From: Hexactinellida sp. DTS-2022
Taxonomy: Eukaryota > Porifera > Hexactinellida
Length of the DNA stretch: 64,000 bases
NCBI GenBank assembly: GCA_028753945.1
Contig: JAPNXP010000002.1
Location: 9,734,001-9,798,000, forward strand
Reading direction: 5' to 3'
A program made the translations under genes and the position numbers. Below the pieces are notes generated by a model that saw only the letters and a program-made list of their open reading frames with translations, was not told where the DNA came from and made no database searches. This document shows, piece after piece, positions 29,173 to 63,240 of the stretch (the stretch's first letter is position 1; every line of letters begins with the position of its first letter).

Positions 29173-29706
29173 ACCAAAGAGTGCTAAGACAAGCAATACA
29201 CTAAGTGAACACTCTGCTGCTCCCCTGGACGCTAGTTCCTGTTGATGTGTGGCTCAATATTAAATAAATGAAACTAATTTAAGTTAAACCAAAGAGTGCT
29301 AAGACAATCAATACACCAGGTGAACACTCTGCTCCTCCCCTGGACGGTAGTGCCTGTTGATGTGTGGCTCAATATTAAATAAATGGAACAAATTTAAGGT
29401 AAGGTTGCATATACCTTTAAGCACTTTTTCTACAGTTTTTTGCAGATTAGAAAGATCTTTTTTGTTTTAGATTCCTAGGGCGAGATATATGCAAAAATGC
29501 AATAATATTCGACCTAGGTAACACTGATTAAATTTTAAATTTTATAAAAACACACTTTTTGGAACACACTTTTTGGAACACACAAGTTTTTTCCTCTTAA
29601 TGATTAAGACTTGTTTCCTGTTGTATTACATAGAGAAGCTTCTAATCTATCATATGAATGTACAACTTCTTTTGACTACTTATGAGTCCAATTTTTCATC
29701 AATAAC

Positions 29707-30792
29707 CAGGCTTGCCGTGGAGATGAAAAATCGCATCCATATCCATATCCATATCCAGACCATATTTTGTGGATATCCATGGATATCCATGGATATCCAT
29801 TGAATATTGATATATTTCTAACACCTAATATCAACAAAATATCCAGAAGATTTAGGTCCTTTAATTTACGTATATTTATTATTTATCAACTAAATCTTGT
29901 ACTACTATATAATCAAACTTCGTCAATATCGCTATCATCCTCAAAACATCTCTTTCTGGGTCATTATTGATGGCTTCTGCAAAGATTATCGCAGGCACGT
30001 AGCTACGGGGGGGCGAGGGGGGGGGCGATTGCCCCTCCAAAAGTACTTCTCGCCCCCCTCCCAAGAGAATTTAGGAAGTGTTCGTTATAGTAAATAGAGT
30101 GATTCGTCCCCCCCTTGCCCCCCCCCCCCGAATCCCTGCACTTGCCCCCCCAATATAAAAACTTGCCCCCCTGAATTACATACTCTAGCTACGTGCCTGG
30201 ATTATTGCGTTCGATAACAAATCCTAGCTTTTTGAAGAGTCCATCGCGCCAAATTTTTTGGAATTTCATTGTCTATTCTATGGTTAATCAATAAGCTAAA
30301 GTATAGCAAGTAGGATAAACGAAAAGCAAAATAAAATCATAGCAATTAAAATTCAGGAGTGACGTGAAAAAATTAAGGAGATAGACAGGTCAATCTCAGG
30401 AAATATAACAAGTCCACATTTCTTGTAGTTGTATTAGCATTCCTAAATATACTTTGACATGCAAGCTTTCCTAATGTGAAAGAAAAATTCGATTTGGTCA
30501 CTATAATGACCTTTTTGACGTCAATAAAGGTCAAAATCACCTTATTTTAGAATAATAAGGCTAGTAAATAATTTTATTAGTTGAAATAAATTAGGAGTGT
30601 AAATAAAACTAAGACTACTTAATTTTTACACTTATTTATTAGTACCCTGGTTTGAAATATTTTCGAAGTCAAATTTGAAATGGATATCCACCATATCCAT
30701 GGATATGAAAAAAACTCGATATCCATCCATGGAGATCTCCATGGATATATCCGTGGATATCTCCATGGATATCCATATCCACGGCAAGCCTG
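29707..30792. mobile_element. hAT element rich in GGATATCCAT words
   Basis: Ends CAGGCTTGCCGTGG and CCACGGCAAGCCTG are flanked by TCAATAAC on both sides. Clusters of ATGGATATCCAT lie near both ends as subterminal repeats, which also produce apparent ORFs without meaning. It is 1086 bp including a second hAT insert at 29992-30199. Confidence 0.92.
29992..30199. mobile_element. hAT MITE inside hAT element
   Basis: Ends CAGGCACGTAGCTACG and TAGCTACGTGCCTG are flanked by GATTATCG and GATTATTG (7 of 8 bases). It is 208 bp with long G and C runs that fold on each other. Confidence 0.88.
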
Positions 30793-31102
30793 TCAATAAC
30801 AGTGGACATCACTTTTTTTATGATTAAGAAATCTAATAAAATTAGAAAGAACTGTTACTAATGAAATCTCTACATTGATATGATATAACTAATTGAGAGC
30901 TGTCCAAAACCGTTGAGATTTTGTTTCTAGGTTGTATATGAGGCAAAAAGTGTCTCCCAAAACGACAAAAAGTTTGTTCCGAGGTAGCGGGGTTTGAAAG
31001 AATAACCCCCCAAGGCATAGGCGGATAGTTATCTAAAAATTCCTGAAATTCTGGGGGGGCGAGTCCTGTCAATTATCCGTAGTTCATATTCTTTATTAGT
31101 GT
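30793..31102. repeat. remote family A-like sequence
   Basis: The text GTCCAAAACCGTTGAGATTTT through GAGGTAGCGGGGTTTGAAAG parallels the CCGAAACCGTTGAG..TTTTGAGATAGCGGC block of family A. With the GCAAAAATGCAATAATATT word at 29493 it suggests that 29394-31102 descends from an A-like element. Confidence 0.5.
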
Positions 31103-31829
31103 TTAAGGTTAAATTACGGCAGATTCATGTAAAAAAACACATAAATTTCGTTTTGAAGTAAGATGTTTAATTTTCACATATATAATAGAAGACATTATAG
31201 CTAAATCGAAACTGAAAACGAAATCGAATTATTTTGAATAAATTCGATTTTATGGGGCGTGCAGTTTTATGGTAATACAAAAGTCCCATAGGGGGATTTC
31301 TTCAGACTCCACCTGATAAGTGTGTCGATCTCAAGATCATTATTAGCTAAAGACATATTATGTGCGATATATCACATAGATCATCGTTATATGCTGTAGG
31401 TGACTGGTTTAGAATTTTGATTTGACCTAAATAAAAAAAGTTGCGACCTTTTGAACTAAAGAAATCAGTAAAAAGTCATGTTTTTTATGAGATATTTGAT
31501 AAAATGTTTGAAAAATAATTTCAGAGTCATAATTCAAAAATGTAAACCGACTACCAACTCCGTACGCTTATAATCTTTCAATATTGATTCTGATAACAAA
31601 CATTGATGGCCGCATTGCCAAATTACACTATAATATCGACCACCACTTTTTGAAATCGCCCTATGGGAGATTTGTATTAGCCAAATATTGAAACCGACAA
31701 AAAATAAAAAGTATAATATATTGAGACATTTTCTTTTTTGTTTATTGCTTTGTATCGTACCTTGATCTATTTCTAACAATTACAGATTAATACAAGAGAT
31801 TTCATTCCCGTGGGGTAATTTAACCTTAA
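31103..31829 (-). mobile_element. TTAA MITE family C, reversed
   Basis: TTAA-flanked, 727 bp, with termini GGTTAAATTACGGCAG and GGGGTAATTTAACC. It is somewhat more diverged internally than the copies in the satellite. Confidence 0.9.
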
Positions 31830-32690
31830 GGTATTTATCTATCGAAATAATTCACGAGTATTAATTGGCAAGCATTGTGGTTAACAGAAAAAAAAAAAAA
31901 AAACGAATTAGTCAAAATGTTGGGAGTATGCATTTTTATTATAATGTCACATTGGGTCCAAAAATATTCTTTCTCTGTACTGTCTTGTCCACAAACTCTT
32001 CCATAATACTGTCAATCTCTTCCATAATACTGTCAAAAATCCAGTTTTTAGACATAAAATCTGGGGGGGCAGCCCCCCCTGCCCCCCCCAGTTTTCCGCC
32101 CATGCCCCAAGGAAGTGGCTCAGGTGGAGGGCACTAAAAAGTCGATATCAATGAAAGTTTTCAATATTTTGCTATGAAATTTGAAATTGATATGCGGCAT
32201 AGGCTGTTCTATCCAAAAATAACATAAAACCGATATGTGGCTAATTACCCGAAAGTGGAAATTTTTGTGGTAACCCCTACCTATAGCCAGTAATGGTAAA
32301 AAAATCTTTTTTATAATAAAATCAAAATTAATATTCAATTGATTTAAAGTTGATTTACTATTTGAAAATGGTGAAACCTATTTCAATCGTAGTTATTTCA
32401 ACGTAATATTACAAAGTATACTTACTGCGAAATTCTCAATTGAATACCTATTATATAATTTGAGTTATGTTCAGTCAAATCAATGAATATAATTTCCCAA
32501 AAAATCAAATAAATCAAATTTTCCTAGCCTGACTACAACACTGCAGTATACTTTCCAGGAACAAAATACATTGTATCCATAAATAATTATAACCTCACAA
32601 CTAATAAGAAGTTGATTATAATATAGAATGCAACATACATTCTATGCATAAATATTTCTAAACTGAAATTGCATAGAGGTCAACGCCACT
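31830..32690. other. non-coding stretch with a G/C-run hairpin
   Basis: At 32060-32110 the runs CTGGGGGGGCAGCCCCCCC form a hairpin. A-rich text is at 31890-31905. A duplicated CTCTTCCATAATACTGTCAA lies at 31997 and 32017. No gene is supported. A small frame at 31865-32137 ends in G-run-derived residues and is rejected. Confidence 0.4.
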
Positions 32691-32790
32691 GCCATCTCGG
32701 CATTCGCCTCCGCCTCCGCCACCGTCCGCCTCCGCCTCCGCCACCGTCCGCCTCCGCCACCTTCCGCCTCCGCCACCACCGCCTCCTTGT
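32691..32790. repeat. CCGCCTCCGCCACC minisatellite
   Basis: Units of CGCCTCCGCCACCGTC repeat about six times. A similar CCGCCACCGCCATCGC tract is at 33510-33545. Each lies just downstream (minus strand) of one of the two small gene copies. Confidence 0.8.
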
Positions 32791-32844
32791 TTAGGATTTA
32801 TCTCCGCCACCAGAGGTAGCATCCCCCTGCTAGACACAGGAGGA

Positions 32845-33089
32845 TCAGGGGATGCTAACCCCAAGGGCTATGGCAGCCTCCCGGAAGCTGCTGAGCTCTT
32901 TCCGGGCCTGCTCGCTCTGATCTAAATATAAAGTATTATGAGTGTGTAAAGGAAATCTCCATAGCTATAGTGAGTGAAATTACCTCTATGCGTGACGGCT
33001 TGGAGCCGGGACACCATCTCCCGTTTCCGAAAATCATATAGGACCTCCTCGAGACGTATGAGGTCTTCGACCTTTATTTCTGTAGTCAT
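32845..33089 (-). CDS. small spliced coiled-coil protein, copy 1 (likely decayed)
   Basis: On the minus strand exon 1 runs 33089-32984 and exon 2 32921-32845, split by a 62-bp intron with GTAATTTC donor and TTTAG acceptor. The product is 60 residues: MTTEIKVEDLIRLEEVLYDF, RKREMVSRLQAVTHR, then SEQARKELSSFREAAIALGV and SIP. It is helical and charged. Copy 2 (33556-33871) has the same intron length, splice sites and LSRLQA../REAAI.LGVSIP blocks. There a C-terminal membrane segment follows GVSIP; copy 1 stops at that point because one C is missing. I know no family for it. Confidence 0.55.
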
Positions 33090-33109
33090 GCCAATTGTTG
33101 TAGTAGGTA

Positions 33110-33520
33110 TAACATTTCATTATTGTACAGAATAAATGGTGACCGATTGTCTCAATTATTGGATCAGAGTGTATCTTTCCTATTTCTATAAAGGAAAGAA
33201 ATATTTTGGTGTAGTTTTTTGTAGTTTTTTTGTTTTTTGTGTATTTTTTTGTAGTATTTTTGTTTTTTGTGTATTATTTTGTAGTTTTTTTTGTTCTTTG
33301 TTCTACAATACATAATACATAAATAATATAACATAACATAACTAATAGTTTCCGTACACATTCCGGTGCAATGTAATGTAACTAAGTTGTTGAATTAGGT
33401 AGAATTAGGTTGTAGAATTAGATAGAATTTTTTGTTGTAGAATTAGGTAGAATTTTTTGTAGTATTTTTGTTTTTTGTGTATTTTTTGTTGTTGTTTATT
33501 CGTTTTTTGTCACCACCACC
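33110..33520. repeat. shared 5' region and T-rich minisatellite
   Basis: The segment 33095-33195 is nearly identical to 33877-33985 (for example CATTTCATTATTGTACAG and TCAATTATTGGATCAGAGTG), showing that the two small genes duplicated together with upstream DNA. The segment 33200-33300 and 33440-33500 hold TTTTTTGTGTATTTTTTG units. The segment 33300-33375 matches 34590-34670. Confidence 0.75.
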
Positions 33521-33555
33521 GCCACCGCCACCGCCATCGCCATCTTTTTGGGGAA

Positions 33556-33871
33556 TTACCTCCGCCACCAGGTCCAGAGGTAGCATCCCCCTGCTACATA
33601 CAGGAGGATCAGGGGGATGCTAACCCCTAAGACTATCGCAGCCTCCCGGATAGTGCGGATCTGCTCCCGGGCCTCCTCCCCGCCTGATCCCTCTCTTTTA
33701 TGGCGAGATCTCTCTGATCTAGATATAAAGTATGATGAGTGTGTAGAGGAAATCTCCATAGCTATTTTGAGTGAAATTACCTCTATACTGGGTGGCTTGG
33801 AGCCGGGACAGCCACAACTGACATCGATAGTTGTACACGGCCTCCTCAAGAAGTATTATTGCAGGAGACAT
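33556..33871 (-). pseudogene. small spliced coiled-coil/membrane protein, copy 2
   Basis: Exon 1 on the minus strand runs 33871-33781 (MSPAIILLEEAVYNYRCQL, WLSRLQATQYR). The intron is 33780-33719, 62 bp with GTAATTTC and ATCTAG borders. Exon 2 begins 33718 with DQRDLAIKERDQAG. One frameshift later it reads EEAREQIRTIREAAIVLGVS and IPLILLYVAGGCYLWTWWRR before a stop at 33556. The C-terminal 20 residues are a membrane segment with an Arg-Arg end, suggesting a tail-anchored protein. It is a tandem duplicate of copy 1 and resembles the plus-strand gene at 39276-39667 in layout. Confidence 0.6.
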
Positions 33872-34004
33872 GCTAATTGTTGTAGTGGGTATAACATTTC
33901 ATTATTGTACAGAATAAATGGTGACCGATTGTCTCAATTATTGGATCAGAGTGTATCTTTTCTATTTCTATAAAGGAAAGAAATATTCCATCATTTCCAA
34001 GGCA

Positions 34005-34600
34005 ATTTTCACTATTTTTTTGTGTGGAATTTGTTTTTTGTGTATTTTTTTGTAGTATTTTTCTTTTTTGTGTATTTTTTGTAGTATTTTTGTTTTTTGT
34101 GTAGTTTTTTTGTAGTTTTTTTGTTTTTTGTGTAGTTTTTGTGTAGTTTATGTGTTTTTTGTGTAGTTTTTGTGTAGTTTTTTTGTTTTTTGTGTATTTT
34201 TTTGTAGTATTTTTGTTTTTTGTGTATTCTTTGTAGTTTTTTTGTTTTTTTGTGTAGTTTTTTTGTAGTATTTTTGTTTTTTGTGTATTTTTTTGTAGTA
34301 TTTGTGTTTTTTGTGTATTTTTTATAGTTTTTTTTCTTTTTTGTGTATTTTTTGTAGTTTTTTTAGTTTTTTGTGTATTTTTTTTGTAGTATTTCTGTTT
34401 TTTGTGTAGTTTTTGTGTAGTTTTTTTGTTTTTTGTGTATTTTTTTGTAGTTTTTTTGTTTTTTGTGTATTTTTGTGTAGTTTTTTTGTTTTTTGTGTAT
34501 TTTTTTGTAGTATTTTTGTTTTTTGTGTATTTTTTTGTAGTTTTTTTTTAGTTTTTTGTGTAATTTTTTGTAGTTTTTTTACTTTTTTGTTCAACAATAC
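34005..34600. repeat. TTTTTTGTGTATTTTTTGTA minisatellite
   Basis: Roughly 25-30 degenerate units of TTTTTGTGTA(G/T)TTTTTTTG fill nearly 600 bp. Open frames across it on both strands encode only KTQKTKKL-like or CVFFCSFF-like repeats and are not genes. It lies between the small genes and the 3' end of the transposase gene. Confidence 0.92.
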
Positions 34601-35637
34601 ATGACACATAAATAATATAACTAACATAACTAATAGTTTCTGTACACATTCCGGTGCAATGTAATGTAACTAAGTTGTAGAATTAGGTTTAGCTTCTTCC
34701 AAACATACAAAAAACTAACAAAAGTTACAATACATATAGGTTGAGACTAGGTATAATAAATTGTATAACAAATAATAACTAATAAACATACAAATAAAAA
34801 GTTTTAGTGACTAACAACAATTACATAGGGGGCATATCCACAAATCATCTTCTCCGACATCTACAGCTACAACATTCATTCTCCTCAAACAATTATTATG
34901 ATGCCAACCATCACAGATATCACAACATAACCAGGCTACACTTACACTAATATCTTTTCCAATACTACTACCCGCCTTGTTCAATATCCCACTGTCTTCG
35001 CTCCCTCCACATATTTTACATTCTATGTCCATATCCCGTGGCACAGTTGCTGTTTGGGAATAGGCCCCGCTCTTATAGGTAGCTCCACGCTTCCGGGAGC
35101 GCTTTGCTTGTTTTAGGGACCACCTACGCTTAGTATTATTTGCACATCTTAAACTATTTGTAATTCTCTCATTATCGAACTCTTTTACTAAATTATCTAT
35201 TGAAATATAACCGTTCAATCCTAAAATATCGATGATTTTTTGAATCCCAGCTATCCCCTCGTTGAAACGAAGAATTGCTAAACGACAACCTAATTTCATC
35301 AAACTCAATTCTATTGGCTTAGTTTTACTAATACAGTTCCAAATCATCCCATGAAGGTTCTCATTCAAATTTGAGGTATTACCACTCTGAACCTTTTCCA
35401 AAAATGACAGCGCAAAATATGGTGCTAAAATCTCTAAAACACGATCCCTACAGGCTAAACTGATGCACTTGGGATGTTTTGGAATGGTATCTCCTACAAC
35501 TACCGCTTTCTGATACATGCAAAATGAATCAACACCCTTCTCACAATATTTATGCATTTCATGACAATTCTCATCATTAGCAGCTAAATGATAAACAATT
35601 CCCAACAATGCTTCACGTAATTCAATTAGATTACCAC

Positions 35638-35828
35638 CAGGGTATATTATAAGGTCATTTTTTAATTCCTAGCCCATTTTTTTATTCCTATTTTCATTTT
35701 TTTACTCCCTTGATTAGTGAGTTTTTATCGTCTGATATCCATTTCAAGATTCCATTCCTACCGAAAATCCATTTTTTTATTCCACGAAAACAATAAAAAC
35801 ATTTTTTTATTCCTTATAAAATACACTG
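35638..35828. mobile_element. hAT MITE inserted in the transposase gene
   Basis: Ends CAGGGTATATTATAAGG and CCTTATAAAATACACTG are flanked by ATTACCAC on both sides. Inside, the word CATTTTTTTATTCC repeats about four times. Without the element and one flank copy the host frame reads KSRIGGN-LIELREALLG, in frame. It is 191 bp. Confidence 0.92.
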
Positions 35829-36433
35829 ATTACCACCAATTCTACTTTTTACAACAAAGCCATAAAGTGATGTTATTTTATCAATTATATTATCAGCTAA
35901 AAGATTTATTTCAATAGATTTATCCCCTAATTCTTCACTATCACCCCAAATATCTCTCCCTTTTTTCAAATCCCTAAGTGTAGATGGCCGATATAGATCC
36001 CTAACAGATCTTTTCTGCGCTTCTGTTTTACATTGCCCCAATTCGTGTTGCAATAGTGTCTTTTGAGAATCAATAAATTCTTTTTGTTTTTCAACTAAAT
36101 GTATTCGTATACGCTTCTGAACATGGCTCAAACATTCCTCCCTCCTTATTGTTATATTAAATTCCCCATAAATGTTATTTTCAGCTAATATATTGATACT
36201 TTTATCATCACCATCCGCAATAACTGTGGAGTAAATTAATTTTTGATCTATTGACTTTCGAAAAATAACTGGTGCTAATTTAGATTCGAGCGCAACTGAA
36301 CTATATTTGCCATATTCTTTGGCCTGGCAACTAGATTCATGCATTTCTTTCCATATTTTATATTCAGATAATTCTAATAGTTTGTCCCTAAGAGCTTGTT
36401 GCTTCTCAATACACAATTTGCAACTATTACAGG

Positions 36434-36617
36434 CAGTGTTTTTTTTAAGGCAAATTAGAGGCCCAAAATGGTCCTCTAATTTTTCTGAATGGGCCTCTAA
36501 TTTTTAACGTGCTAAGTACTCAATATCATGAAATGAAGAGTGAGGGCCTCTAATTGTTGGGGTGAGGGCCTCTAATTGTTGGCAGGGCCCTCTAAGCAAA
36601 TCCTTAAAAAAACACTG
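36434..36617. mobile_element. hAT MITE inserted in the transposase gene
   Basis: Ends CAGTGTTTTTTTTAAGG and CCTTAAAAAAACACTG are flanked by ATTACAGG on both sides. Internal GGGCCTCTAATT words repeat four times. Removing it with one flank copy gives host frame SYEIACN-SCKLCIEKQQ, restoring a Cys pair. It is 184 bp. Confidence 0.92.
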
Positions 36618-38034
36618 ATTACAGGCAATTTCATAGCTTAGTACTTTTTCAGTTTCCACGGATATAGCACAAGCAACGCAGTATCTAGAGAATCCACCGC
36701 CCGCTTTCCCCCCCCCTTTTTTGATAGGCTCCGTCATAAGAAACAGTAACCTCTAAAAATTCTGAATCTGCCGTATTGTGGTTTTCTCTCAACTCTAAGG
36801 CTGCCCGCATACAGCTTGCTTGTGCTACATCCGTGGAAACCTTAGATAAATATGCTTGAGCTTTGTAAAATGCTCTATTAGATAAAGTTGATGGCAAACC
36901 AATGAAAGTATTTACGAAATCAAGTCCTGATTTACCAATTCCCACTAATCTACCTCCCAAAATTTGTAACAAGATATGACCAAACTTTATTGTATTATCT
37001 GTGTCAGAATGGGGGGTACTATTCTGAGGGAGAGTAAAGAAAGGAGTAGCTGAAAAACATTGATCACAAACAATATAATAATGCAAGGCCAGTCCATGAT
37101 TATAAGACGTTCGATAGAAAGTTAGCCGACCTTTACGACAAAACTTACACATTGAAATTACATCTAGTGCTCCCTCTAAAATTCCTATATTCAAAAGTGC
37201 ATTCCCTTCTACCCTACATAAATATATTTTTTGACCCCTAGATTTTCCGACCTCAAAAATCTCCAGTTCCTCAAGTGGAAGATCTGGCAAAATGATTGGG
37301 GAGATTTTTGATTGGGCAGTTGTAAGTTTAGGCTGACTTTCAGATAACGAAGTTTCTTGATGTTCTTGGCTATCCAAAAATGGTATGGTCTCGTTTTGGG
37401 TCTCCACAGAAATTCTGGGGACCTTAGCGGATAGCTCAAGAACATCAAGAGACTCCGTTACACTTGCTTGGCTGCTATTTGTAGGAAGGGGAGCATACTC
37501 AGGAGCTAAGGCCACCTTTTCGCGCTTTATGTGTCCACGGAATTTATGAGGACGCTTTTTAGAGCCAACAACAACTCTACGTTTTTCTGTTTTTATTATG
37601 GGAGTTATAGGAGCTGAAAACACAAATTTACCTTCCGAAGATCCTCCAAAATCAAAACCTTTAGGCACCTCAATCTCCTCCTCAGAACTCGAACTGAGAT
37701 CCTTTCGAGGAGGTCCCGGGTGTTCCTCCACACCACCAATAATCAACAAAACAATTACAACCGCGAGCACCAGAAGTGTGGATATGCCCCACAAAATATC
37801 CAATGTCTGCCCCAGTGAAATATCAATTTTCGGGGCACTAGTCTTGGAAGACAGCCTCACTCTTCCAGTCCACACACCAATACAGCCTCTCCAGGCTTCT
37901 AGGGAAATCATTTCCAAATTCAAGAGAATAGAAAAATTAGAAATAAATTGAAAAACAAAAGAAATAAAGAACAAACAATAAGAACGAAGTTTTGAATAAC
38001 AATTGAGTTTAGTGAAAGTATTATTTATATACAC

Positions 38035-38203
38035 AGTAGTGCTATAATGTCATAATGGCAATGCGGGTGATCTTATTCGTTACAAATATAGATGCACTTA
38101 TTGCGTCTGAGTGATAAGAATAGAATCATTATGGCATAATGAAATCTGCGCATGCGCAGATTTCAAAATAATAAACAGTGCATCAAAGTTGACAAACAAA
38201 CAG
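38035..38203. promoter_or_regulatory. divergent promoter with NRF1-type box
   Basis: This 170-bp gap separates the minus-strand transposase from the plus-strand genes. It holds TGCGCATGCGCA at 38149-38160, a perfect palindromic NRF1 (Drosophila ewg) consensus. Direct words ATAATGGCA and TTATGGCATAATG flank it. NRF1 sites are common in bidirectional CpG-type animal promoters. On the plus side ATGAAAGGAACC..GTAG|GTAATTC at 38204 may be a short first exon with a donor. A decayed copy of the region is at 5389-5515. Confidence 0.6.
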
Positions 38204-38414
38204 CATGAAAGGAACCATTATTATTGTAGGTAATTCACATCTAAATTAGTTATTGAAGAGGTAAATTTACCAGATGAAGGAATACCGACTAAGTTATTCT
38301 TATATATGCATAAAATTTAGTTTACTCGTTGGGTTATTACGTATAAATAGATTCAATTATTGAATAACAGTAGATTTTTGGAATATTATATTATAATAAA
38401 TAATTGTTTGTATT

Positions 38415-38717
38415 ATGACATCCGCAATACGTACCGACATATTGTATATGAATGGCTGTTTGAGGAGGGCGCCTTCAACAAGAACACGCAATATATTACA
38501 AAATGTTATATTGTCTCTGCAAAGGGAAAAGCAGAGGATTCAAAAAGCTCTCCGCGCGGCACGGAAGATGAGGAGGATAAATGCGAGAAGTTGTAAGCGT
38601 CTCCCTAGATTTTATATCAATGACCTTCGCAGAAGACACGCACACGCTATGTGGGAAGGTAATGCCCAACTTCCGCAAGATGAGGCCCTGGAGTTCCACC
38701 AGATGTGTAAACAATAA
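38415..38717 (+). CDS. hypothetical basic helical protein
   Basis: A 100-residue frame starts MTSAIRTDILYMNGCLRRAP and includes NVILSLQREKQRIQKALRAA, RKMRRINARSCKRLP, RRRHAHAMWEGNAQLP and a tail FHQMCKQ. It is strongly basic, predicted helical, and GC-richer than its flanks, which suggests a real exon. An upstream AACAG acceptor-like site at 38370 would allow splicing from the promoter-proximal exon. A TAATAATAATAATAG microsatellite follows the stop. I recognise no family. An overlapping frame (38360-38596) is less likely because its codons are AT-rich. Confidence 0.45.
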   Translation: MTSAIRTDILYMNGCLRRAPSTRTRNILQNVILSLQREKQRIQKALRAARKMRRINARSCKRLPRFYINDLRRRHAHAMWEGNAQLPQDEALEFHQMCKQ

Positions 38718-39275
38718 TAATAATAATAGTTAGATTTGTAGTAATAATAGTATTAGTAATGTATGTAGTAAATAATAGTCCACTATACTATAGTATAGTG
38801 GCATATGAATAATAATAACACTTATATGATTTATACGCATAGACGGCATAGTCACAATAAAGGAGTTTTTCTATTGAGGGAAAATCGATTATATTTTTAT
38901 TGTCACAAGTTTCTGAGTTTCCAATTTAAAAGAAATTGTCGAGAAGGATTGTGTTTGATTACGTAAGTGTTGTAGCTAGTCAATTTCGATAACTCTGTTT
39001 GACCCAATGAAGGATAAGTTGTAATTCCTTTATTGGTCTCAGAAACATTATTCGCGTGACTTGAATGCTCCAATGAATTTTTCTGAAGTAAAGGTCAGAA
39101 AATAAGTTATAAGTTACCAAATAGTCAACTTAGCCAATTTCTACTATGAGTGCTCACAAATGGAAAACCTATTCAAAAATGCAATAAAACATAAATTGTT
39201 GATAAATGATATTTTTTCAAATTATCTATTGGTTAGTGGAACCATATTGTAAGTATACTGTTTTCAAAATTAGAT
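38718..39275. other. non-coding spacer, possible intron
   Basis: AT-rich with a CACTATACTATAGTATAGTG palindrome at 38782. It ends in a TTTTCAAAATTAG acceptor at 39273 just before the next ATG, so it may be intronic or 5' untranslated sequence of the gene at 39276. Confidence 0.4.
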
Positions 39276-39667
39276 ATGACACGTCCTGCACCACCTAGCT
39301 ATGATAGCTTGACACGTCCTCCGCCTCCGCCGCCTTCGGCATATGATGGGATTGATGGCATAAGTTGGAGCCGGTCAATGACTCGGCTCCACATTTCTTT
39401 GATGACATCAAAGAGTAAGTTCACACATTATAATTTACTTTACTGAAATCTTACAATTGTATAAATTTAGGAACTACATTGTACTGGTGGGAGGTCTCCA
39501 AGAAGAAGGAGGCCCGAGCCAGGGCCTCCGAAAACCGGGAGACAGGTCTCCGCGAGGACCTGGAAAAGTCCGAGGAGAGGGCTATGGCCCTAGAAAGAAA
39601 AATTGAATTTTTGAAATTTCTAGGGGCCATAACCCTCCCCATTATAACATTCTTCCTCACTTGTTGA
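39276..39667 (+). CDS. spliced PPxY/coiled-coil tail-anchored protein
   Basis: Exon 1 (39276-39414) and exon 2 (39471-39667) join across a 56-bp intron (AGA|GTAAGT, ATTTAG|GA), giving 111 residues in frame. The N-terminus MTRPAPPSYDSLTRPPPPPP followed by SAYDG is proline-rich with a PPSY (PPxY) motif that could bind WW domains. Residues ~55-90 (SKKKEARARASENRETGLRE, DLEKSEERAMALERKIEF) form a charged coiled coil. The last 20 residues LKFLGAITLPIITFFLTC are a membrane segment at the very C-terminus, a tail-anchor layout. The minus-strand small genes at 32.8-33.9 kb share this short-intron, coiled-coil, C-terminal-membrane plan. The frame is intact; the function is unknown. Confidence 0.65.
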
Positions 39668-39789
39668 GGAGAATTATTGTTGTGGAGGTTGGAGGAAATA
39701 ATGGAGGAGGAGGCAATAAGAAGGGGGAGACACGGAATATGTGAGTGAAATAATATGATATACCTTATAATTGACCAGTTGTAATATGC

Positions 39790-40672
39790 ATATTATCTTT
39801 AGACCAAAAGGATTTAGTTCTGAAGCGGGTTTGACAAGTGTATATAACTTGAAATATAACTTGATTTTTCCTAGTAATTACAACAGAGGCTCAGAGGTTA
39901 TTATTGAAGCCAAAAATGCAATATTATCAAATTCATTAGGGTTCATATTATATCGAATTTCTAGTGATCGATCGTACACTGCAACGTGAAGGTTGTGACA
40001 AATGTGTCTGTATTATGGAATATAATTTGTATTTTCCTAGCAAATTCATTAGAGTTCTCAGAGGTAAACATAAGAATCCGAAAATGCAATATAATCTAAA
40101 TTGATTTTGTTTCGATATTTTATCGTATTATTTCAGTGTTCAATCGTGTACAAGCAACCTGAGTGATGGTGACATAAGGGTCTATAACTTGAAATTCAAT
40201 CTGTATTTTACCTAGTTATTTCGTGAGAGTGCACAGAGGTAAACATAGATTCGGAAAATGCAATATAAGCAACATTGATTAGGGTTGATATTTTCAATTT
40301 TTTCAGTGTTCGATCGTTACTGTAACATAAAGTGATGGTCACATAAGAGTCAATAACTTGAAATTTAATTTGTATTTCACCTAGAAATTTCGTGTGAGTG
40401 ATCAGAAGTAACCATAGATGTCGGAAATGCAATAAAATCAAAATTGATTAGGGTTTTATATTTTCTCGATTTTTAGTGTTCAATCGTGTAATTCAACTTC
40501 AGGGGACGGTGACATAATAGTCGATAACTTGAAATAAAATTTGTATTTTACCTAGAAAATTCATGAGAGTGATTAGAAGTAACCATAGAGGTCGAAAATG
40601 CAATAAAATCAAAAATGATTAGGATTGATATTTTATCGATTTTTTTCGGAAATTCGAAGGTATACTGCAACC
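39790..40672 (+). repeat. ~170-bp subterminal tandem repeat, five units
   Basis: Words TAACTTGAAAT, GTATTTTACCTAGAAA, GAAAATGCAATAAAATC and GTTCAATCGTGTA recur about every 169-170 bp (for example 40182, 40351, 40520). Each unit carries a form of the GTATACTGCAACC terminal word, and the last one is the right end of the 29.4-40.7 kb element. Divergence between units is about 15-25%. It looks like subterminal repeats of a transposon. Confidence 0.8.
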
Positions 40673-41135
40673 TTAAATTTGTTTCATTTATTTAATATTG
40701 AGCCACACATCCACTGGCACTACCGTCCAGGCGGAGGAGCAGAGTGTTCACCTGGTATATTACTTGTCCTTGCACTCTTTGATTTAACTTAAATTAGTTT
40801 CATTTATTTAATATTGAGCCACACATCAACAGGAACTACCGTCTAGGCGGAGGAGCATAGTGTGCACTTAGGGTGTAGGTTGTCTTAGCCCACTTTGGTT
40901 TAACTAAAATTTAGTATATTTATTGAATATTGAGCCACACATCAACAGGCACTACCCTCTCGGCGGAGGAGCAGTTTGTTCACTTAGTGTATTGCTTGTC
41001 TTAGCACTCTTTGGTTTAACTTAAATTTGTTTCATTTATTTAATATTGAGCCACACATCAAATGGCACTACCGTCCAGGCGGAGGAGCAGAGTGTTCACC
41101 TGGTGTATTGCTTGTCTTAGCACACTTGGTTTAAC

Positions 41136-41859
41136 TTAAGGTTCATGTATACTGTAATGCACTTCTACCAAAAATATTTACCTCATTACTTGAAATTTTA
41201 CTGCGGATTTGATTCATCCTTCTATTTGCAAAAATGCAATAATATTTCAATAACAAGTAACTGGGAAAATTTTCGGTTTCAAATTTTACTCTTTTGTGTA
41301 AGAGATTTTTTAGTAATAATGAACCTTGCAATAGTAAATTCTGTTTAAATGCGTTTACCTATATCTTGTTTATCCTTTATCGTCTGGGATTGTTCCAATT
41401 TTATTTATTTTTAATTTTCTTGAATATTACGTTATGCCAACTTTTTAATCGAAATTTTCCTATCCAAAACCGCAAAGGTCTGCAACAATTTCTAATTTAA
41501 TAGATCGCAAACGATACAGGATGTATCTAGACGAGATCTATCCGAAACCGTTGAGATTTCGATTCTACGTGCAAAACTGAAAAAGTTTCTTATCTACACA
41601 AATCTGAAAATGTTAGTTTTGAGATAGCGTGTTTTGAAAAAACTTTTTACATCAATTATTCCTAGATTGAGGTGACCAAAGTGTGTTAAACTGGAGAAAT
41701 AATAGGAATTCTTCTTAGAAATCTCTTGAGAGTACTTATTGGTATAATAAGTACTCTCAAGAGTACTCTCACAATCCAAAAATGCAATAAAAGAGAGATA
41801 GACAATGATTTGGATTTTAACTAAATTTTCGAATTTTGTAGAGTATACCTGAACGTTAA
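41136..41859 (+). mobile_element. TTAA MITE family A' (diverged A) in satellite
   Basis: Ends TTAAGGTTCATGTATACTGT and GTAGAGTATACCTGAACGTTAA; 724 bp. The interior keeps family A words in shifted form (GAAACCGTTGAGATTTCG). A local inverted duplication AGTACTCTCAAGAGTACTCTC lies near 41748. A near-identical copy is at 53583. Confidence 0.88.
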
Positions 41860-43819
41860 ATTTGTTCTATATTTAATATTGAGCCACAGATCAACTGGCA
41901 CTACCGTCCAGGCGGAGGAGCAGAGTGTTCACCTGGTATATTGCTTGTCTTAGCACTCTTTAATTTAACTTAAATTTGTTTCATTTATTTAATATTGAGC
42001 CACACATCAACAGGAACTAGCGTCCAGGGGAGGTGCAGAGTGTTACTTAGTGTATTGCTTGTCTTAGCACTCTTTGGTTTAACTTAAATTTGTTTAATTT
42101 ATTTAATATTGAGCCACACATCAACAGGAACTAGCGTCCAGGCGGAGGAGCATAGTGTGCACTTAGGGTATTGCTTGTCTTAGCCCACTTTGGTTTAACT
42201 AAAATTTAGTTTATTTATTTAATATTGAGCCACACATCCACTGGCACTACCGTCCAGGCGGAGGAGCAGAGTGTTCACCTGGTATATTACTTGTCCTAGC
42301 ACTCTTTGATTTAACTTAAATTTGTTTCATTTATTTAATATTGAGCCACACATCAACAGGAACTAACGTCTAGGGGAGGAGCAGAGTGTTCACTTAGTGT
42401 ATTGCTTGTCTTAGCACTCTTTGGTTTAACTTAAATTTGTTCTATATTTAATATTGACCACACATCAACTGGCACTACCGTCCAGGCGGAGGAGCAGAGT
42501 GTTCACCTGGTATATTGCTTGTCTTAGCACTCTTTAATTTAACTTAAATTTGTTTCATTTATTTAATATTGAGCCACACATCCACTGGCACTACAGTTCA
42601 GGTGGAGGATCATAGTGTTCACCTGTTGTATTGCTTGTCTTAGCACACTTTGATTAACTTAAATGTGTTCTATATTTAATATTGAGCCACACATCAAATG
42701 GCACTACCGTCCAGGCGGAGGAGCAGAGTGTTCACCTGGTGTATTGCTTGTCTTAGCACACTTTGGTTTAACTTAAATTTGTTTTATATTTAATATTGAG
42801 CCACACATCATCAGGCACTACCGTCCAGGCGGAGGAGCATAGTGTTTACTTAGTGTTTTGCTTGTCTTAGCACACTTTGGTTTAACTTAAATTTGTTTCA
42901 TTTATTTAATATTGAGCCACACATCAACAGGAACTAGCCTTCAGACGGAGGAGCAGAGTGTTCACCTGGTGTATTGCTTGTCTTAGCACACTTGGTTTAA
43001 CTTAAATTTATTCTATATTTAATATTGACCACACATCAACTGGCACTACCGTCCAGGCGGAGGAGCAGAGTGTTCACCTGGTATATTGCTTGTCTTAGCA
43101 CTCTTTAATTTAACTTAAATTTGTTTCATTTATTTAATATTGAGCCACACATCCACTGGCACTACAGTCCAGGCGGAGGAGCATAGTGTTCACCTGTTGT
43201 ATTGCTTGTCTTAGCACACTTTGATTAACTTAAATTTGTTCTATATTTAATATTGAGCCACACATCAAATGGCACTACCGTCCAGGCGGAGGAGCAGAGT
43301 GTTCACCTGGTGTATTGCTTGTCTTAGCACACTTTGGTTTAACTTAAATTTGTTTTATATTTAATATTGAGCCACACATCATCAGGCACTACCATCCAGG
43401 CGTAGGTGCATAGTGTTTACTTAGTGTTTTGCTTGTCTTAGCACACTTTGGTTTAACTTAAATTTGTTTCATTTATTTAATAGTGAGCCACACATCAACA
43501 GGAACTACCGTCCAGGCGGAGGAGCATAGTGTGCACTTAGGGTATTGCTTGTCTTAGCACACTGTTGTTTAACTTAAATTTGTTTTATTTATAATATTGA
43601 GCCACACATCAACAGGCACTACCGTCCAGGCGGTGGAGCAGAGTGTTCACCTGTTGTATTGCTTGTCTTAGCACACTTTGATTAACTTAAATTTGTTCTA
43701 TATTTAATATTGAGCCACACATCAAATGGCACTACCGTCCAGGCGGAGGAGCAGAGTGTTCACCTGGTGTATTGCTTGTCTTAGCATTCTTTGGTTTAAC
43801 TTAAATTTGTTTCATTTAT

Positions 43820-44524
43820 TTAAGGTTCAGTATACTCTACAAATTTCGAATATTTAGATAAAATCCAAATCATTTTCTATTTCTCTTTTATTGCATTTTA
43901 GGATTGTATTGATACCAATGAGTACTCTCAAGAGATTTCTAAGAAAGATTCCTATTATTTTTCCAGTTTGACACACTTTGGTCACCTCAATTTAGGAATA
44001 ATTACTGTAAAATTTTTTTTCAAAAGCCGCTATCTCAAAACTAACATTTTCAGAATTGTGGATGAAGTCATTTTGTCAATTTTGGTCATAGAATCAAAAA
44101 CTCAACGGTTTCGGAGATATCTCGTAAAGATACAACTTTTCAGACTGCGATTTACCCTAATATGAATAGTTCATCTGTTTTTTGGATTTTGGATAAGGAA
44201 AATCTTCATTTGAAAATAGAGATTACATAAAAGTATTTGAAATCCAGAAAAATGTAGATATTCACAATTCCTGTACTCAAAAGTTATATTACATCCAGCT
44301 AAACACATTTTATCAATAATATTCTTGGTATTGTTTATCTTTTCTCATTGATCTATTCCGCAAAAATGGTAAAATTTAAAAAATGATTTTTCCTCTATTA
44401 GTTTATTTGCCAATATTATTGTATTTTTGGCATCCTGAGGATGAATTAAATCAGCTGTAAAAAAATTAATTCATTCGGGTGAATAGTTATGGTAGAAGTA
44501 CTCTAGAGGATACCTGAACCTTAA
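43820..44524 (-). mobile_element. TTAA MITE family A in satellite
   Basis: A reversed family A of 705 bp sits in the ATTTAATATTG part of a monomer, with TTAA on each side. The same insertion is present at 60137-60841, so it predates the block duplication. Confidence 0.92.
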
Positions 44525-45116
44525 TATTGAGCCACACATCAACAGGCACTATCGTCCAGGCGGAGGAGCAGAGTGTTCACCTGGTGTATTGCTTGTCTTA
44601 GCACACTTTGGTTTAACTTAAATTTGTTTTATATTTAATATTGAGCCACACATCATCAGCCACTACCGTCCAGGCGGAGGAGCATAGTGTTTACTTAGTG
44701 TATTGCTTGTCTTAGCCTACTTTGGTTTAACTTAAATTTGTTAAATATTAAATATTGAGCCACACATCAACAGGCACTACCGTCCAGGCGGAAGAGCAGA
44801 GTGTTCACCTGGTGTATTGATTGTCTTAGCACTCTTTGGTTTAACTTAAATTTGTTTCATTTATTTAATATTGAGCCACACATCAACAGGCACTACCTTC
44901 CAGGCGGCGGAGCATAGTGTTTACTTAGTGTTTTGCTTGTCTTAGCACACTTTGGTTTAACTTACATTTGTTTCATTTATTTAATATTGAGCCACACATC
45001 AACAGGAACTAGCCTCCAGGCGGAGGAGCATAGTGTTTACTTAGTGTTTTGCTTGTCTTAGCACACTTTGGTTTAAGTAAAATCAATTCTTTGCGAAATA
45101 TCCTCGAAATACACCT

Positions 45117-45663
45117 TTAAGGTTCAGGTATCCTCTAGAGTACTTCTACCATAACTATTCACCCGAATTAATTAATTTTTTTACAGCGGATTTACTTCAT
45201 CCTCAGGATGCCAAAAATACAATAATATTGGCAAATAAACTAATAGAGGAAAAATCTTTTTTTAAATTTTACCATTTTTGCGGAATAGATCAATGAGAAA
45301 AGATAAACAATACCAAGAATATTATTGATAAAATGTGTTTACCTGGATGTAATATAACTTTTGAGTACAGGAATTTTGAATATCTACATTTTTCTGGATT
45401 TCAAATACTTTTATGTGATGTCGATTTTCAAATGAAGATTTTCCTTATCCAAAATCCAAAAAACCGATGAACTATTCATATTAGGGTAATTCGCAGGACT
45501 GAAAAGTTGTATCTCTACGAGATCTCTCCGAAACCGTTGAGTTTTTGATTCTAGGACCAAAATTGACAAAATGACTTCTTCCGCAATTCTGAAAATGTTA
45601 GTTTTGAGATAGCGGCTTTTGATAAAAAAAATTACAGCAATTATTCCTAAATTGAGGTGACCA
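45117..45663 (+). mobile_element. TTAA MITE family A, truncated by RT element
   Basis: It starts TTAAGGTTCAGGTATCCTCT and follows family A to GAGGTGACCA, where the reverse-transcriptase element begins. The last ~140 bp and the right terminus are not found beyond that element. Confidence 0.88.
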
Positions 45664-46892
45664 TCGGATAGAGTGATTCTTGCCCTGCCTCGTGTCCCGC
45701 CACGACGAGGATCGTTCAGGATGCCGGAAGATGTTGGTGCCAGGGTTTCGGGGTTAGGGAAGGGGCAGGAAAATGACCGTAGGGCCTGAAGTGGAGGCAT
45801 GCCCATTCTTCCCTGGAGTTTATATCGATTCCGAAATGGACGACTGCGTTGGATGCTACTAATGGGCGTCGAATAGTGGAATCGCCGTCGTTCCGGTAGA
45901 TATTCCGCCCTTGTGTTTGCTTTTAAGCTGGCGAAGGTTGGTCGACGTGTAGAATATTTGATGGTAAGCGTGGGCACGGGTCGATAGGACTTAGGGGCTT
46001 TGCATGGTCCCGGGAAATAGCAAATTTCAACAAATGAGTATACAAGATATTCGGCGTCTTGGCCCCTGGCAACCAAGGCAGGCAGGTAGACGCGGAGGAG
46101 AAGCTCAAACGCATCGGCTGGATAGGTCGAAATTCGTGCAATTCTGTGTGCAGAACCAGGCACGTCGCCAGGATTTTTCATCTAGGGGGGGCGGCAAAAT
46201 TACCAGGGGGGGCATGCCCCCCCTCCCCCCCCCCCTCACAAAATTCGTATCAACGAGAGTCGATTATAATATGAAATTATCAAGTTTCTATCTTATATAT
46301 TAAATCTAAATGGTTTGTTTTTTTGTTTGTTGTTTGTTTGTTCGGAATTGATTGAGAAACTGGGTAAGAGCTACAGATTTGTAATTTGGCAGGGAGGTGG
46401 GTAACTACGTATCTAGAAACAAGTTCTAATATCTACGAAAAATATTCACATCTTCAATCTCAAAAGGTAACAAAACCTTTAGCCAATTAAATTCGAGCGT
46501 GGCACAGTATGGATTAGCAGCTAGCATTCAATTAGTATAAATTGATTTAGTGTCTCTAACATTTGTTAAGCGTGCATTATAGAATGCCAATCTGAAACTG
46601 CAATTTAATTGGGCGAGAGAAAAATAATAAATCCAATCATTTATTTGTAATTTACATATTTTAAAGGGTCGTGGCCGCTTACTTCCAACGACTATATATG
46701 GAGTAATTAAGTAAGCTGATTCCAAATATGATGTTGTTAACAACCCATGTGTATATATTTGTTGTTTAGATCTAGACGTTATAAGGAATTTACAAACGTT
46801 ACTTCTGTTATTTGTTGGTTGGGATATATGAGGCACCAGAAGGGTGCTTTCTGCAGCCGCGCAGCGAAAGCAAGCGAAGCGGGCTTGTATAC

Positions 46893-46923
<31 letters not shown>

Positions 46924-48730
46924 ACCTACAACGTTATTTGGCAATAATTTAGCAGGGGGGTATGTCCCGGGGCACGAAATTTTACCAGGGGGGGCATTGC
47001 CCCGGGGCGAGGATTTCTACCAGGGGGGGCATTGCCCCCCTATGCCCCCCCCGTGGCGACGTCCCTGTGCAGAACCCATGAAGGCATGTTTGATTAATTT
47101 TTCGGAAAAATGTAGTGTACGCGTGTCGAACGGTTGAGGGGGCCGGTCTGCCTGCACGCGGGGTATTCTGGCCCTGCGGGCAATCAGCCAATCGGTGTCC
47201 TGAGTGATATTATCGGCTGTTTTCGTGATTTCATAGATGCCGCGCAGCTCGCTCAGCTCACCATCGAGGGGAAATGTGGCGGCAATATCATCGAAGTAGA
47301 TGGTGAATATACGGCCTGGAGGTGGTAAAAATTTAGGACAAGATGGCAGGTTACGATCCGTGCCAGTTCCGCGGCAAGTGGAAGGCCCATCGGGATGCCT
47401 ACTGCTCCGAGGTAATAAATAAATTTTCCGTCGGTGGCGTAATTAAAACGGAGTAGGCCGCAGATTATTTGATAGGACTTCTTGTCGCTATGGAAATAAT
47501 AGAGATAGGCCGCTAGGATGGCCTTGTGTGGTGTAGATGGGTAAAATTTACCAAGTCCCCAGTGTAGATAGTTTGTGGCGGGCGTATTGTTCTAGCCGGG
47601 CCTGTGTGTCGAACACGTCTCGTGTAAGATACTGATTGTCTGCCAGTATTGGTGTAATTTGTCGGCGAAGATATTTAGAGCAGAGGGCCGTCATAGTATT
47701 AGAGTGATTGATGATTGGCCGCAAAAGGGTGGCCATGTGCTCTGGGGTATCATTTAAAAAAAAATGTGTTCGCTGCGGGTGTCGTGGAGGAGATCTTTAA
47801 ACTGGACTTTATGAGCTTTTATATGGAAATAGAGCTTTGGGACTCTATCGTCACAGCTGCCCACTGGAATATCTGAATCTTTTTTGAGGAGGGAGCATTT
47901 GAGGGCGTTGAGACTAGCCAGGTATATCTGTGCGGAGCAGGGTGTGGCTTCGTGTGCCTCCATGTACAGTCTGTACAGCTGCTGAAGGAGTTCTTTTGGG
48001 AGCAGACACATGCCGGAGCCTTTATCTATCACCACCAATGCCAAATTTGCGAGGCGCATCCTTTCAGATAATTGTTTGATGAGCCGCTTATGCTCATGCT
48101 GCATCGCAAGGTTTTTAGTAGGAAGGTCGATCTTTTCGGTAGGCGTAGGCAACAGATTGCTTAATTCTAAAATTTGATTCCAATCCGTGAGGAAGGGTGT
48201 CGCAGAATGATAGTCCGAGTCACTCTGGAAATGCATCCCAAACGATATCAGCTCCTGGAGGATTTGCGCCGTGTCCAGGAGCCACGTTTGGCTTCCGATG
48301 CTATAAGCACGCGGGGTTGAATGTCGTCGTTCCGCATCGATTTGTCTCCTGCGTGTGAAAGAGCTGGTGGTTTTGAAGGAAGGAGTATGCATCCCGTGAC
48401 TTATTGGGTGCCGGGGGCGCCGCCGTCGCTGAGAAAGCTGTTTCCTGCTAACGTCTATTCTTTCGGTTAGTGGCTCTTCGACGGTGTAGGGAGAATCTTC
48501 GTATAACACGTAGACAGGCGCCAACAGGTGCTGCCACGTGGCGGGTAAAGGATGCGGCGTAGATATTTGTCTGTGTGCTGGTTTGGGCGCGCGGGATTCC
48601 ATCTCAAGCTGTTGGCTTGCTCTGTCTTCGAGTTGTTTTTGCTCAATATGGATCCTTGATCGGTCGATACTACTGAGACCCAAGGCACACTGGTCACATC
48701 TGTGCTCGTCGAATAGGTCAAGAGGCAGGG
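45664..48730 (-). mobile_element. reverse-transcriptase retroelement fossil, copy 1
   Basis: This minus-strand retroelement has reverse-transcriptase parts in the expected order: a fingers region with KAHK near 47.80 kb, RPII near 47.72 kb, MPMGLP near 47.39 kb, an FDD catalytic box near 47.29 kb, and a C-terminal region at 45.7-46.15 kb. The KxHK..RPII layout recalls Penelope-like elements, but the family is not settled. It is broken, with several breaks plus a hAT insertion at 46157-47067. No terminal repeats were found. It abuts family A on one side and a pogo MITE on the other. A near-identical copy is at 61981, so the copy pair is young although the element itself was already dead. Confidence 0.7.
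46157..47067. mobile_element. hAT element inside the retroelement
   Basis: Ends CAGGCACGTCGCCAGGATTT and GTGGCGACGTCCCTG are flanked by TGCAGAAC on both sides. G- and C-runs sit near both ends, with a GTTTGTTTGTT tract (46313) and (TAA)n at 46888-46921. Frames across it, such as the minus ORF 46528-46944, have no transposase motif. It is 911 bp. Confidence 0.92.
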
Positions 48731-53582: not shown

Positions 53583-54307
53583 TTAAGGTTCATGTATACT
53601 GTAATGCACTTCTACCAAAAATATTTACCTCATTTACTTGAAATTTTACTGCGGATTTGATTCATCCTTCTATTTGCAAAAATGCAATAATATTTCAATA
53701 ACAAGTAACTGGGAAAATTTTCGGTTTCAAATTTTACTCTTTTGTGTAAGAGATTTTTTAGTAATAATGAACCTTGCAATAGTAAATTCTGTTTAAATGC
53801 GTTTACCTATATCTTGTTTATCCTTTATCGTCTGGGATTGTTCCAATTTTATTTATTTTTAATTTTCTTGAATATTACGTTATGCCAACTTTTTAATCGA
53901 AATTTTCCTATCCAAAACCGCAAAGGTCTGCAACAATTTCTAATTTAATAGATCGCAAACGATACAGGATGTATCTAGACGAGATCTATCCGAAACCGTT
54001 GAGATTTCGATTCTACGTGCAAAACTGAAAAAGTTTCTTATCTACACAAATCTGAAAATGTTAGTTTTGAGATAGCGTGTTTTGAAAAAACTTTTTACAT
54101 CAATTATTCCTAGATTGAGGTGACCAAAGTGTGTTAAACTGGAGAAATAATAGGAATTCTTCTTAGAAATCTCTTGAGAGTACTTATTGGTATAATAAGT
54201 ACTCTCAAGAGTACTCTCACAATCCAAAAATGCAATAAAAGAGAGATAGACAATGATTTGGATTTTAACTAAATTTTCGAATTTTGTAGAGTATACCTGA
54301 ACGTTAA
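53583..54307 (+). mobile_element. TTAA MITE family A' in satellite
   Basis: Near-identical to 41136-41859, differing by about a base, with the same flanking monomers: the duplicate of that insertion. Confidence 0.9.
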
Positions 54308-61433: not shown

Positions 61434-61980
61434 TTAAGGTTCAGGTATCCTCTAGAGTACTTCTACCATAACTATTCACCCGAATGAATTAATTTTTTTA
61501 CAGCGGATTTACTTCATCCTCAGGATGCCAAAAATACAATAATATTGGCAAATAAACTAATAGAGGAAAAATCTTTTTTTAAATTTTACCATTTTTGCGG
61601 AATAGATCAATGAGAAAAGATAAACAATACCAAGAATATTATTGATAAAATGTGTTTACCTGGATGTAATATAACTTTTGAGTACAGGAATTTTGAATAT
61701 CTACATTTTTCTGGATTTCAAATACTTTTATGTGATGTCGATTTTCAAATGAAGATTTTCCTTATCCAAAATCCAAAAAACCGATGAACTATTCATATTA
61801 GGGTAATTCGCAGGACTGAAAAGTTGTATCTCTACGAGATCTCTCCGAAACCGTTGAGTTTTTGATTCTAGGACCAAAATTGACAAAATGACTTCTTCCG
61901 CAATTCTGAAAATGTTAGTTTTGAGATAGCGGCTTTTGATAAAAAAAATTACAGCAATTATTCCTAAATTGAGGTGACCA
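61434..61980 (+). mobile_element. TTAA MITE family A, truncated by RT element
   Basis: Duplicate of 45117-45663 with the same truncation point. Confidence 0.9.

Positions 61981-63209: not shown

Positions 63210-63240
<31 letters not shown>

Follow-up and report, generated by a model that had tools for sequence, protein, structure and literature searches.

Kolobok DNA transposons are recognized by a DDD/E catalytic triad, a C/DxxH motif between the second D and the E, and a zinc finger before the E (some lineages having a further CCHC finger behind the first D), as well as by TTAA targets and 5'-RR...YY-3' ends (PMC9587614, in the part of the text available). According to the same part of that source, the described lineages (Kol0/KolX and KolobokE, H, P and D) carry lineage-specific accessory proteins, i.e., KolX, nucleases or a helicase; a THAP domain is given as usual in the superfamily in an excerpt of PMC6004289. 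Here, we compare with these systems a transposon of the sponge Hexactinellida sp. DTS-2022 (GenBank assembly GCA_028753945.1; 112 Mb, 18 contigs), residing in a 64,000-nucleotide stretch of contig JAPNXP010000002.1 (C11:9734001-9798000), hereafter called the window. Judging from its sequence, the element is very probably a cut-and-paste transposon of the Kolobok superfamily equipped with accessory genes of its own.

The assignment draws on further copies of the element in the genome, labelled by L-numbers (L009, L025, etc.) or letters (C, D, G, H). A 1-kilobase (kb) piece from the transposase region has at least 62 matching places (40 of 212 candidates scored), part of which match an inserted repeat, not the transposase; 10 kb was taken around 20 places, plus smaller flanks at further places. 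One relative, L025:106-5038 (4,933 base pairs (bp), ends GGTTCAGGTATTC and GGATACCTGAACC), is complete and has TTAA, the Kolobok target, on both sides; the window element, L018 and L033 have TTAA on the right. The intact transposase of L025 is an open frame of 910 residues matching PF20700 at E 1.5e-36. Its motifs, assigned by inspection, comprise D401 in SYDGAYQ (399-405), D510 in IADGDDKS (508-515) and E728 in NENLHGMIW (727-735), with CLSH (537-540) as the C/DxxH motif between the second D and the E, an H-C-H-C zinc finger (HLAANDDNCNDMHKYC at 652) between C/DxxH and the E, and a CCHC finger after the first D (CxxC...HxxxC; CKLC at 441 with HESSC at 468). Although PF20700 is named after Mutator, and MuDR/MULE elements duplicate about 9-11 bp of target, the duplication at L025 is the 4-bp TTAA. 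Short inverted GG...CC termini of the window element, and GG...CC termini in L025, fit the 5'-RR...YY-3' rule given in the available text of PMC9587614. No THAP match was returned by Pfam in the L025 or L014 transposase up to E 1, and His-Me, DEDDh, lambda-exonuclease, RecQ and KolX are all missing among the Pfam matches of the transposases and small proteins; a PDB sequence search with the L025 transposase gave nothing beyond PHD fingers. With the target, termini and motifs of a Kolobok, other accessories and no THAP, the element is therefore filed as a new Kolobok variant.

In the window, the transposase gene lies on the minus strand, head-to-head with plus-strand small genes, as the earlier note on this DNA had proposed; two pieces of it match PF20700 (E 7e-11 and 2e-9), and the 3' piece matches a PHD finger weakly (E 4e-4, below the Pfam cut-off). 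The transposase of about 900 residues announced in that note is found as an open frame in L025, whereas the window frame is interrupted twice. Reading the two breaks as introns was rejected, since they are inserts missing from other copies, present only in the window and its duplicate L009 among the fetched copies covering these points; the single exception at the second point, L021, carries a different interruption. Hence, the window transposase is broken, and this copy of the element is dead (old and inactivated). The second insert, a repeat of about 180 bp, occurs on many contigs at 94-97% identity, and other copies show an overlap of its flanks of about 9-13 bp. The start codon (MISLEAW) at 37911 is common to the copies, and the ratio of nonsynonymous to synonymous substitution rates (dN/dS) of the transposase is 0.23 (831 codons, one pair), indicative of purifying selection. 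L036 and L037, two remote relatives with 46-48% identity in the core and 32-34% over longer stretches, represent 2 of 14 such distant places and lack the leader described below; no small-gene match was found in about 4.5 kb upstream of them, the downstream view of about 0.1 kb being too short for gene 3.

Three small genes accompany the transposase. The first encodes a basic protein (net charge +16 in L016) predicted from a single sequence, with modest confidence, to fold into helices only (mean predicted local distance difference test score 74.9, predicted template modelling score 0.48). It is a single unspliced open frame, so of the two small spliced genes previously reported only the other one, for a PPxY protein, is spliced: its intron (GTAAGT) has the same position in seven of the eight copies aligned (the remaining one is a fragment). 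The gap separating the transposase from the basic gene was formerly put at 170 bp, possibly reflecting a longer open frame; from ATG to ATG (37911 to 38415) it measures 503 bp. The PPxY protein starts with MTRPxPPxYD, followed by a conserved middle (ISWSRSMTRLH in five of the aligned copies); a charged helix comes next, then a hydrophobic tail. Its frame remains open in the window and in L018, is cut by a stop in both C and D, and is lost in G and H (in the tail) and in L017. Its dN/dS is 0.33-0.78 in three pairs, two of them at 0.33-0.36. Gene 3, on the other side of the transposase, is present twice in the window and loses its frame in both copies, in the second within the anchor; spliced from L020, it reads MSTDIKIEDV...GVTIPLILLCLARGCYLWGRR. 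A plus-strand open reading frame (ORF) at 33617-33973 was discarded as a gene, being antisense to gene 3. The basic, gene-3 and PPxY proteins have Pfam matches only far below the cut-offs, and PHROGs gave no match for the basic or PPxY protein.

The association of these genes with the element was assessed by genome-wide tblastn, which returned 18 matches of the basic protein, 22 pieces of the PPxY protein and 17 of gene 3, the latter two merged to 10 places each (weak pieces and second exons left out; the window and L009, a near-identical duplicate with 99.5% identity over 7.8 kb, counted separately). By coordinates, 15 of the 18 basic-protein matches are divergent to a family transposase or leader within 12 kb; the exceptions are C11:3271593, where the neighbouring DNA still matches the element flank, C10:1660817 and C6:1290869. 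The PPxY gene adjoins a transposase in the expected divergent orientation at 8 of 10 places, and so does gene 3, in its own expected orientation, at 8 of 10 (two places sharing one transposase). The same gene order recurs at other loci, and homology between copies reaches beyond the transposase, on the right across the small genes as far as about 40.67 kb and on the left as far as about 29.4 kb. The right end, GGTATACTGCAACC followed by TTAA (40673-40676), is found again in L018 and, with one base changed, in L033, where it sits in a flank unrelated to that of the window. These findings support the small genes as belonging to the element family, beyond mere neighbourhood, and bear out the earlier expectation that they lie within a recurring element.

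Still, the set of accessory genes, on the copies compared, is variable and not fixed. L025 contains the leader, the transposase and one small downstream gene on the same strand; its 579 bp past the transposase start are free of basic and PPxY genes. This gene can be read as two exons separated by a phase-1 intron, and its product would end in a hydrophobic stretch; it matches gene 3 weakly (E 0.05) and has in common with it the position, the intron phase, the anchor and, after the stop, TAAATCCCC followed by a GGCGGT-rich repeat. No basic or PPxY gene was detected in 10 kb at L013, L014, L019, L020, L023, L024, L025, L026 and L028; in the eight copies other than L025, this may reflect loss, nested inserts or original absence. 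The consistent accessory set envisaged in the earlier note is thus contradicted by L025, and TTAA-ended copies devoid of every small gene, which the note would have taken as fatal to its proposal, come close to being exemplified there, one tail-anchored gene remaining. The spacing it suggested comparing is kept by nine basic genes, located 486-532 bp from the transposase or leader (two of the nine being the duplicated pair), while the set itself varies between copies.

Comparison with the Kol0/KolX, KolobokE, H, P and D systems (PMC9587614, available text) reveals likeness in the TTAA targets, the 5'-RR...YY-3' ends, the DDE enzyme with C/DxxH and zinc-finger motifs and the possession of lineage-specific extra genes. 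The novelty of accessory genes as such, formerly envisaged as a possible new architecture, is weakened by that precedent. The differences are that the accessories here are membrane-tailed and basic, not nucleases, a helicase or KolX, and the transposase has a membrane-plus-2A-like leader.

This leader is a 66-residue membrane segment with a 2A-like GGVExNPGP end. Its membrane helix scores 2.5-3.0 in the two Kolobok leaders measured, and its dN/dS of 0.19-0.57 (13 pairs) indicates purifying selection. The 2A region is readable in 18 copies: NPGP, which completes the [D/G]xExNPGP motif of 2A (StopGo) sequences as GxExNPGP, in 6 (no basic gene was detected in any of these), HPGP in 5 (the window, L009, L011, L016 and L019) and other changes in 7. 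Histidine occupies the N position in 8 of the 18, which looks like a sub-lineage trait. A 2A-like motif in a mobile-element protein has reportedly been described for APE-type non-long-terminal-repeat retrotransposons (Odon et al. are said to have done so in 2013); the difference here is that one homologous leader is found on DNA transposons whose enzymes belong to unrelated classes. A 2A of the GxExNPGP form is known to be active, and the N is vital in 2A1 of duck hepatitis A virus 1 (DHAV-1), as stated in the accessible portion of PMC6249498; because of the latter, ribosome skipping is, by analogy, probably lost or weak in the sub-lineage of the window. Another similar arrangement, in which an N-terminal hydrophobic stretch is closed by a 2A-like motif, is that of the sea-urchin NOD-like receptor 2A signal sequences, which give dual targeting (PMC4981915, part of the text). 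Relative to that portrayal, the leader here is longer (about 66 residues), starts with a conserved MIS[IL]E..R, has G at the usual D position and belongs to DNA-transposon proteins, its 2A being a prediction.

The leader is found beyond the Kolobok family as well. A genome search with the L014 leader gave 103 matches, 81 of them at E up to 4.3e-4 (the other 22, weaker, were set aside), including 26 at family loci and 55 elsewhere. At least 28 of the 55 outside leaders precede a Helitron_like_N match on their own strand at a distance of 2.1-10.2 kb, among the 34 Helitron_like_N matches used for the comparison; 18 of the remaining 27 are 71-1,539 bp (15 of them 71-81 bp) upstream of frames of a third family, and 9 of the 55 were assigned to neither. 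The three outside leaders that were read (L038, L039 and L040) align over the full length and keep NPGP. In L038 and L039, the N-terminus of the Helitron proteins is homologous to the transposase leader. The third multicopy family (L040; C17:2648640-2650998 and many other places) has frames of up to 1,260 residues in near-identical copies and carries the membrane-2A leader on its first exon; Pfam gave no match for the first 701 residues of L040. The leader may have passed from one transposon to another, or each may have received it from a shared source. In the open-access papers searched (Repbase lying outside the search), nothing joining Kolobok with PPxY or with a 2A peptide was found, nor was there a match for 2A, transposable elements and translational recoding together, titles and abstract openings showing nothing on the leader.

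The basic gene has a history of its own. In the alignment of 11 copies of its ORF, six belong to type 1 and four to type 2, with L017 as an outlier. DNA identity to the window ORF is 49-53% for type 2 and 59% for L017, whereas the alignable flanks of type-2 copies share 83-90% identity with the window flanks (uninformative flanks being those of L016, without a 5' flank, of L015, L034 and L017, rearranged 5', and of L021 and L034, poor at 3'). Identity drops near 38395 and returns near 38740, close to the ORF ends. Among six transposases compared, that of L016 (type 2) is closest to that of L015 (type 1), with a synonymous divergence (dS) of 0.095, the two ORFs being 52% identical; L016 and L011, both of type 2, differ by a dS of 0.45 in the ORF and 0.11 in the transposase. 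This discordance of ORF, transposase and flanks implies that the basic ORF was swapped independently of the remaining element; recombination among element lineages is the simplest route. The dN/dS of type-2 ORFs is 0.15-0.31 in two of three pairs.

A possible, if doubtful, sequence of functional steps can be proposed. The DDE transposase would cut and paste at TTAA, its PHD finger contacting chromatin. With an intact NPGP, ribosomes would skip at NPG/P, yielding a membrane peptide of about 66 residues and a free nuclear transposase; where NPGP is altered to HPGP or otherwise, as in the sub-lineage of the window, either the transposase would be held on a membrane or little skipping would occur. 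The site of action of the tail-anchored proteins would be the cytoplasmic membrane face. PPxY motifs recruit WW-domain ligases, so the PPxY protein may recruit ubiquitin ligases of the NEDD4 type, modulating the transposase level or host defence, and the basic protein may bind nucleic acid, its cassette being swapped between element lineages. Counter-defence or dosage control is our best guess for the putative membrane proteins.

Alternatively, one sub-lineage may have captured host genes or genes of other elements as passengers without function for the element. This is unlikely: the complete L025 has neither the basic nor the PPxY gene, many small-gene copies are broken and dN/dS is near 1 for the window basic ORF, but the PPxY gene and the type-2 basic ORF show the lower ratios given above, each in two of three pairs, and gene 3 occurs in compact and extended forms of the element alike. 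It is very improbable that the element leaves cells in vesicles in a virus-like manner with the help of the small proteins; PPxY is a late-domain motif, and hydrophobic tails and a basic protein of +15/+16 are at hand, but PPxY is found in ordinary ligase adaptors too, no capsid, envelope or protease was recognized, the basic and PPxY proteins lack Pfam matches at the curated cut-off and any in PHROGs, and L025 has neither plus-strand gene. A chance neighbourhood in repeat-rich DNA, also contemplated in the earlier note, whereby a transposase-only transposon beside unrelated small genes was copied as a block by segmental duplication, is scarcely credible, since, for all the near-identity of the window and L009 and the many copies without plus-strand genes, the small genes keep company with the family transposase (basic 15/18, on several contigs; PPxY 8/10), the element ends lie outside the small genes, and differing outer flanks, e.g., those of L033 and the window, largely refute it.

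Several observations weigh against the interpretation of the element as a Kolobok transposon with functional accessories. GTAA, not TTAA, stands at both left ends observed (the window, where GTAA at 29399-29402 precedes GGTTGCATATACC, and L030), a search for an empty site of L025 found no place spanning the junction, and the catalytic and zinc-finger motifs of L025 were placed by inspection. The PHD matches of both the window and L025 are below the Pfam cut-off, the hydrophobicity of the PPxY tail is moderate (1.7-1.9), and the Helitron leader of L038 is weakly hydrophobic (1.13). NPGP is intact in just the six copies mentioned, and the type-1 basic ORF (dN/dS 0.45-1.9) shows no clear constraint. 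Finally, the proposed mechanism is a prediction from sequence. Overall, the explanation combining the identity of the element with the functional steps, weighted to identity, is considered likely.

The features of the window element are collected in Table 1. Without its nested inserts, it would measure about 8.7 kb (two 1.1-kb inserts and the two transposase inserts subtracted).

Table 1. Coordinates of the element and its components in the window
Feature	Position	Strand	Details
Whole element	29403..40672	.	Ends GGTTGCATATACC left, GGTATACTGCAACC right; homology between copies
Nested insert	29707..30792	.	Missing in copy C; flanks overlap 8 bp
Nested insert	31016..32104	.	Missing in copy C; flanks overlap 8 bp
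Gene 3 (tail-anchored coiled-coil type), second copy	32801..33089	-	Exon 1 33089-32984, exon 2 from 32921
Gene 3, first copy, approximate	33562..33855	-	Frame disturbed
Tandem minisatellite within element	34013..34590	.	Units of ~30 bp
Transposase gene, broken by two inserts	34811..37911	-	PF20700 core, weak C-terminal PHD-finger match
Insert in transposase	35640..35827	.	Absent in 16/16 other copies covering the point
Insert in transposase, high-copy repeat	36436..36613	.	Absent in 18/19 other copies covering the point
Leader	37708..37911	-	MISLEAWRG..., membrane helix, GGVEEHPGPP (H replaces N of NPGP)
Basic-protein gene	38415..38717	+	Type-1 cassette, 100 residues, net charge +15
PPxY gene	39276..39667	+	Exons 39276-39414, 39471-39667; 111 residues, hydrophobic tail
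Subterminal repeats	39836..40650	.	~170 bp

Both outer flanks of the window element consist of a 115-bp satellite in opposite orientations, seen at 40673-43823, 44521-45083 and 29300-29398. The TTAA sites of this satellite hold Kolobok-like non-autonomous elements with GGTTCA..TATAC ends, e.g., at 41140-41855, of which 53587-54303 is a 99.9% copy. Stretches resembling a right terminal inverted repeat in copies C and D were rejected as ends of the large element: that of D is inside a non-autonomous element of about 880 bp, and that of C looks the same. Identical open frames occur at 45411-47016 and 61728-63333 of the window, offset by 16,317 bp. On a larger scale, C11 at about 5.45-5.49 Mb is a near-identical inverted duplicate of the window transposon region (C11 9.77-9.81 Mb), due either to a recent segmental duplication or to an assembly effect, and 20 of 28 merged loci of the family are on C11, which makes up 13.8% of the genome (binomial p 7e-12, the copies not being independent).

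Membrane-tailed accessories would extend the list of nucleases, helicase and KolX known for Kolobok from the available part of PMC9587614. The exchanged basic cassette offers a natural series for asking what drives such change. That a portable membrane-2A leader was adopted by three unrelated DNA-transposon machines (the Kolobok DDE enzyme, the Helitron Rep-helicase and the third family) and forms, with the Kolobok accessories, a common membrane-based system of counter-defence or transfer is a long shot; membrane-tailed accessories and a leader common to unrelated transposon classes would provide a testable link of DNA transposition, translational recoding and membranes.

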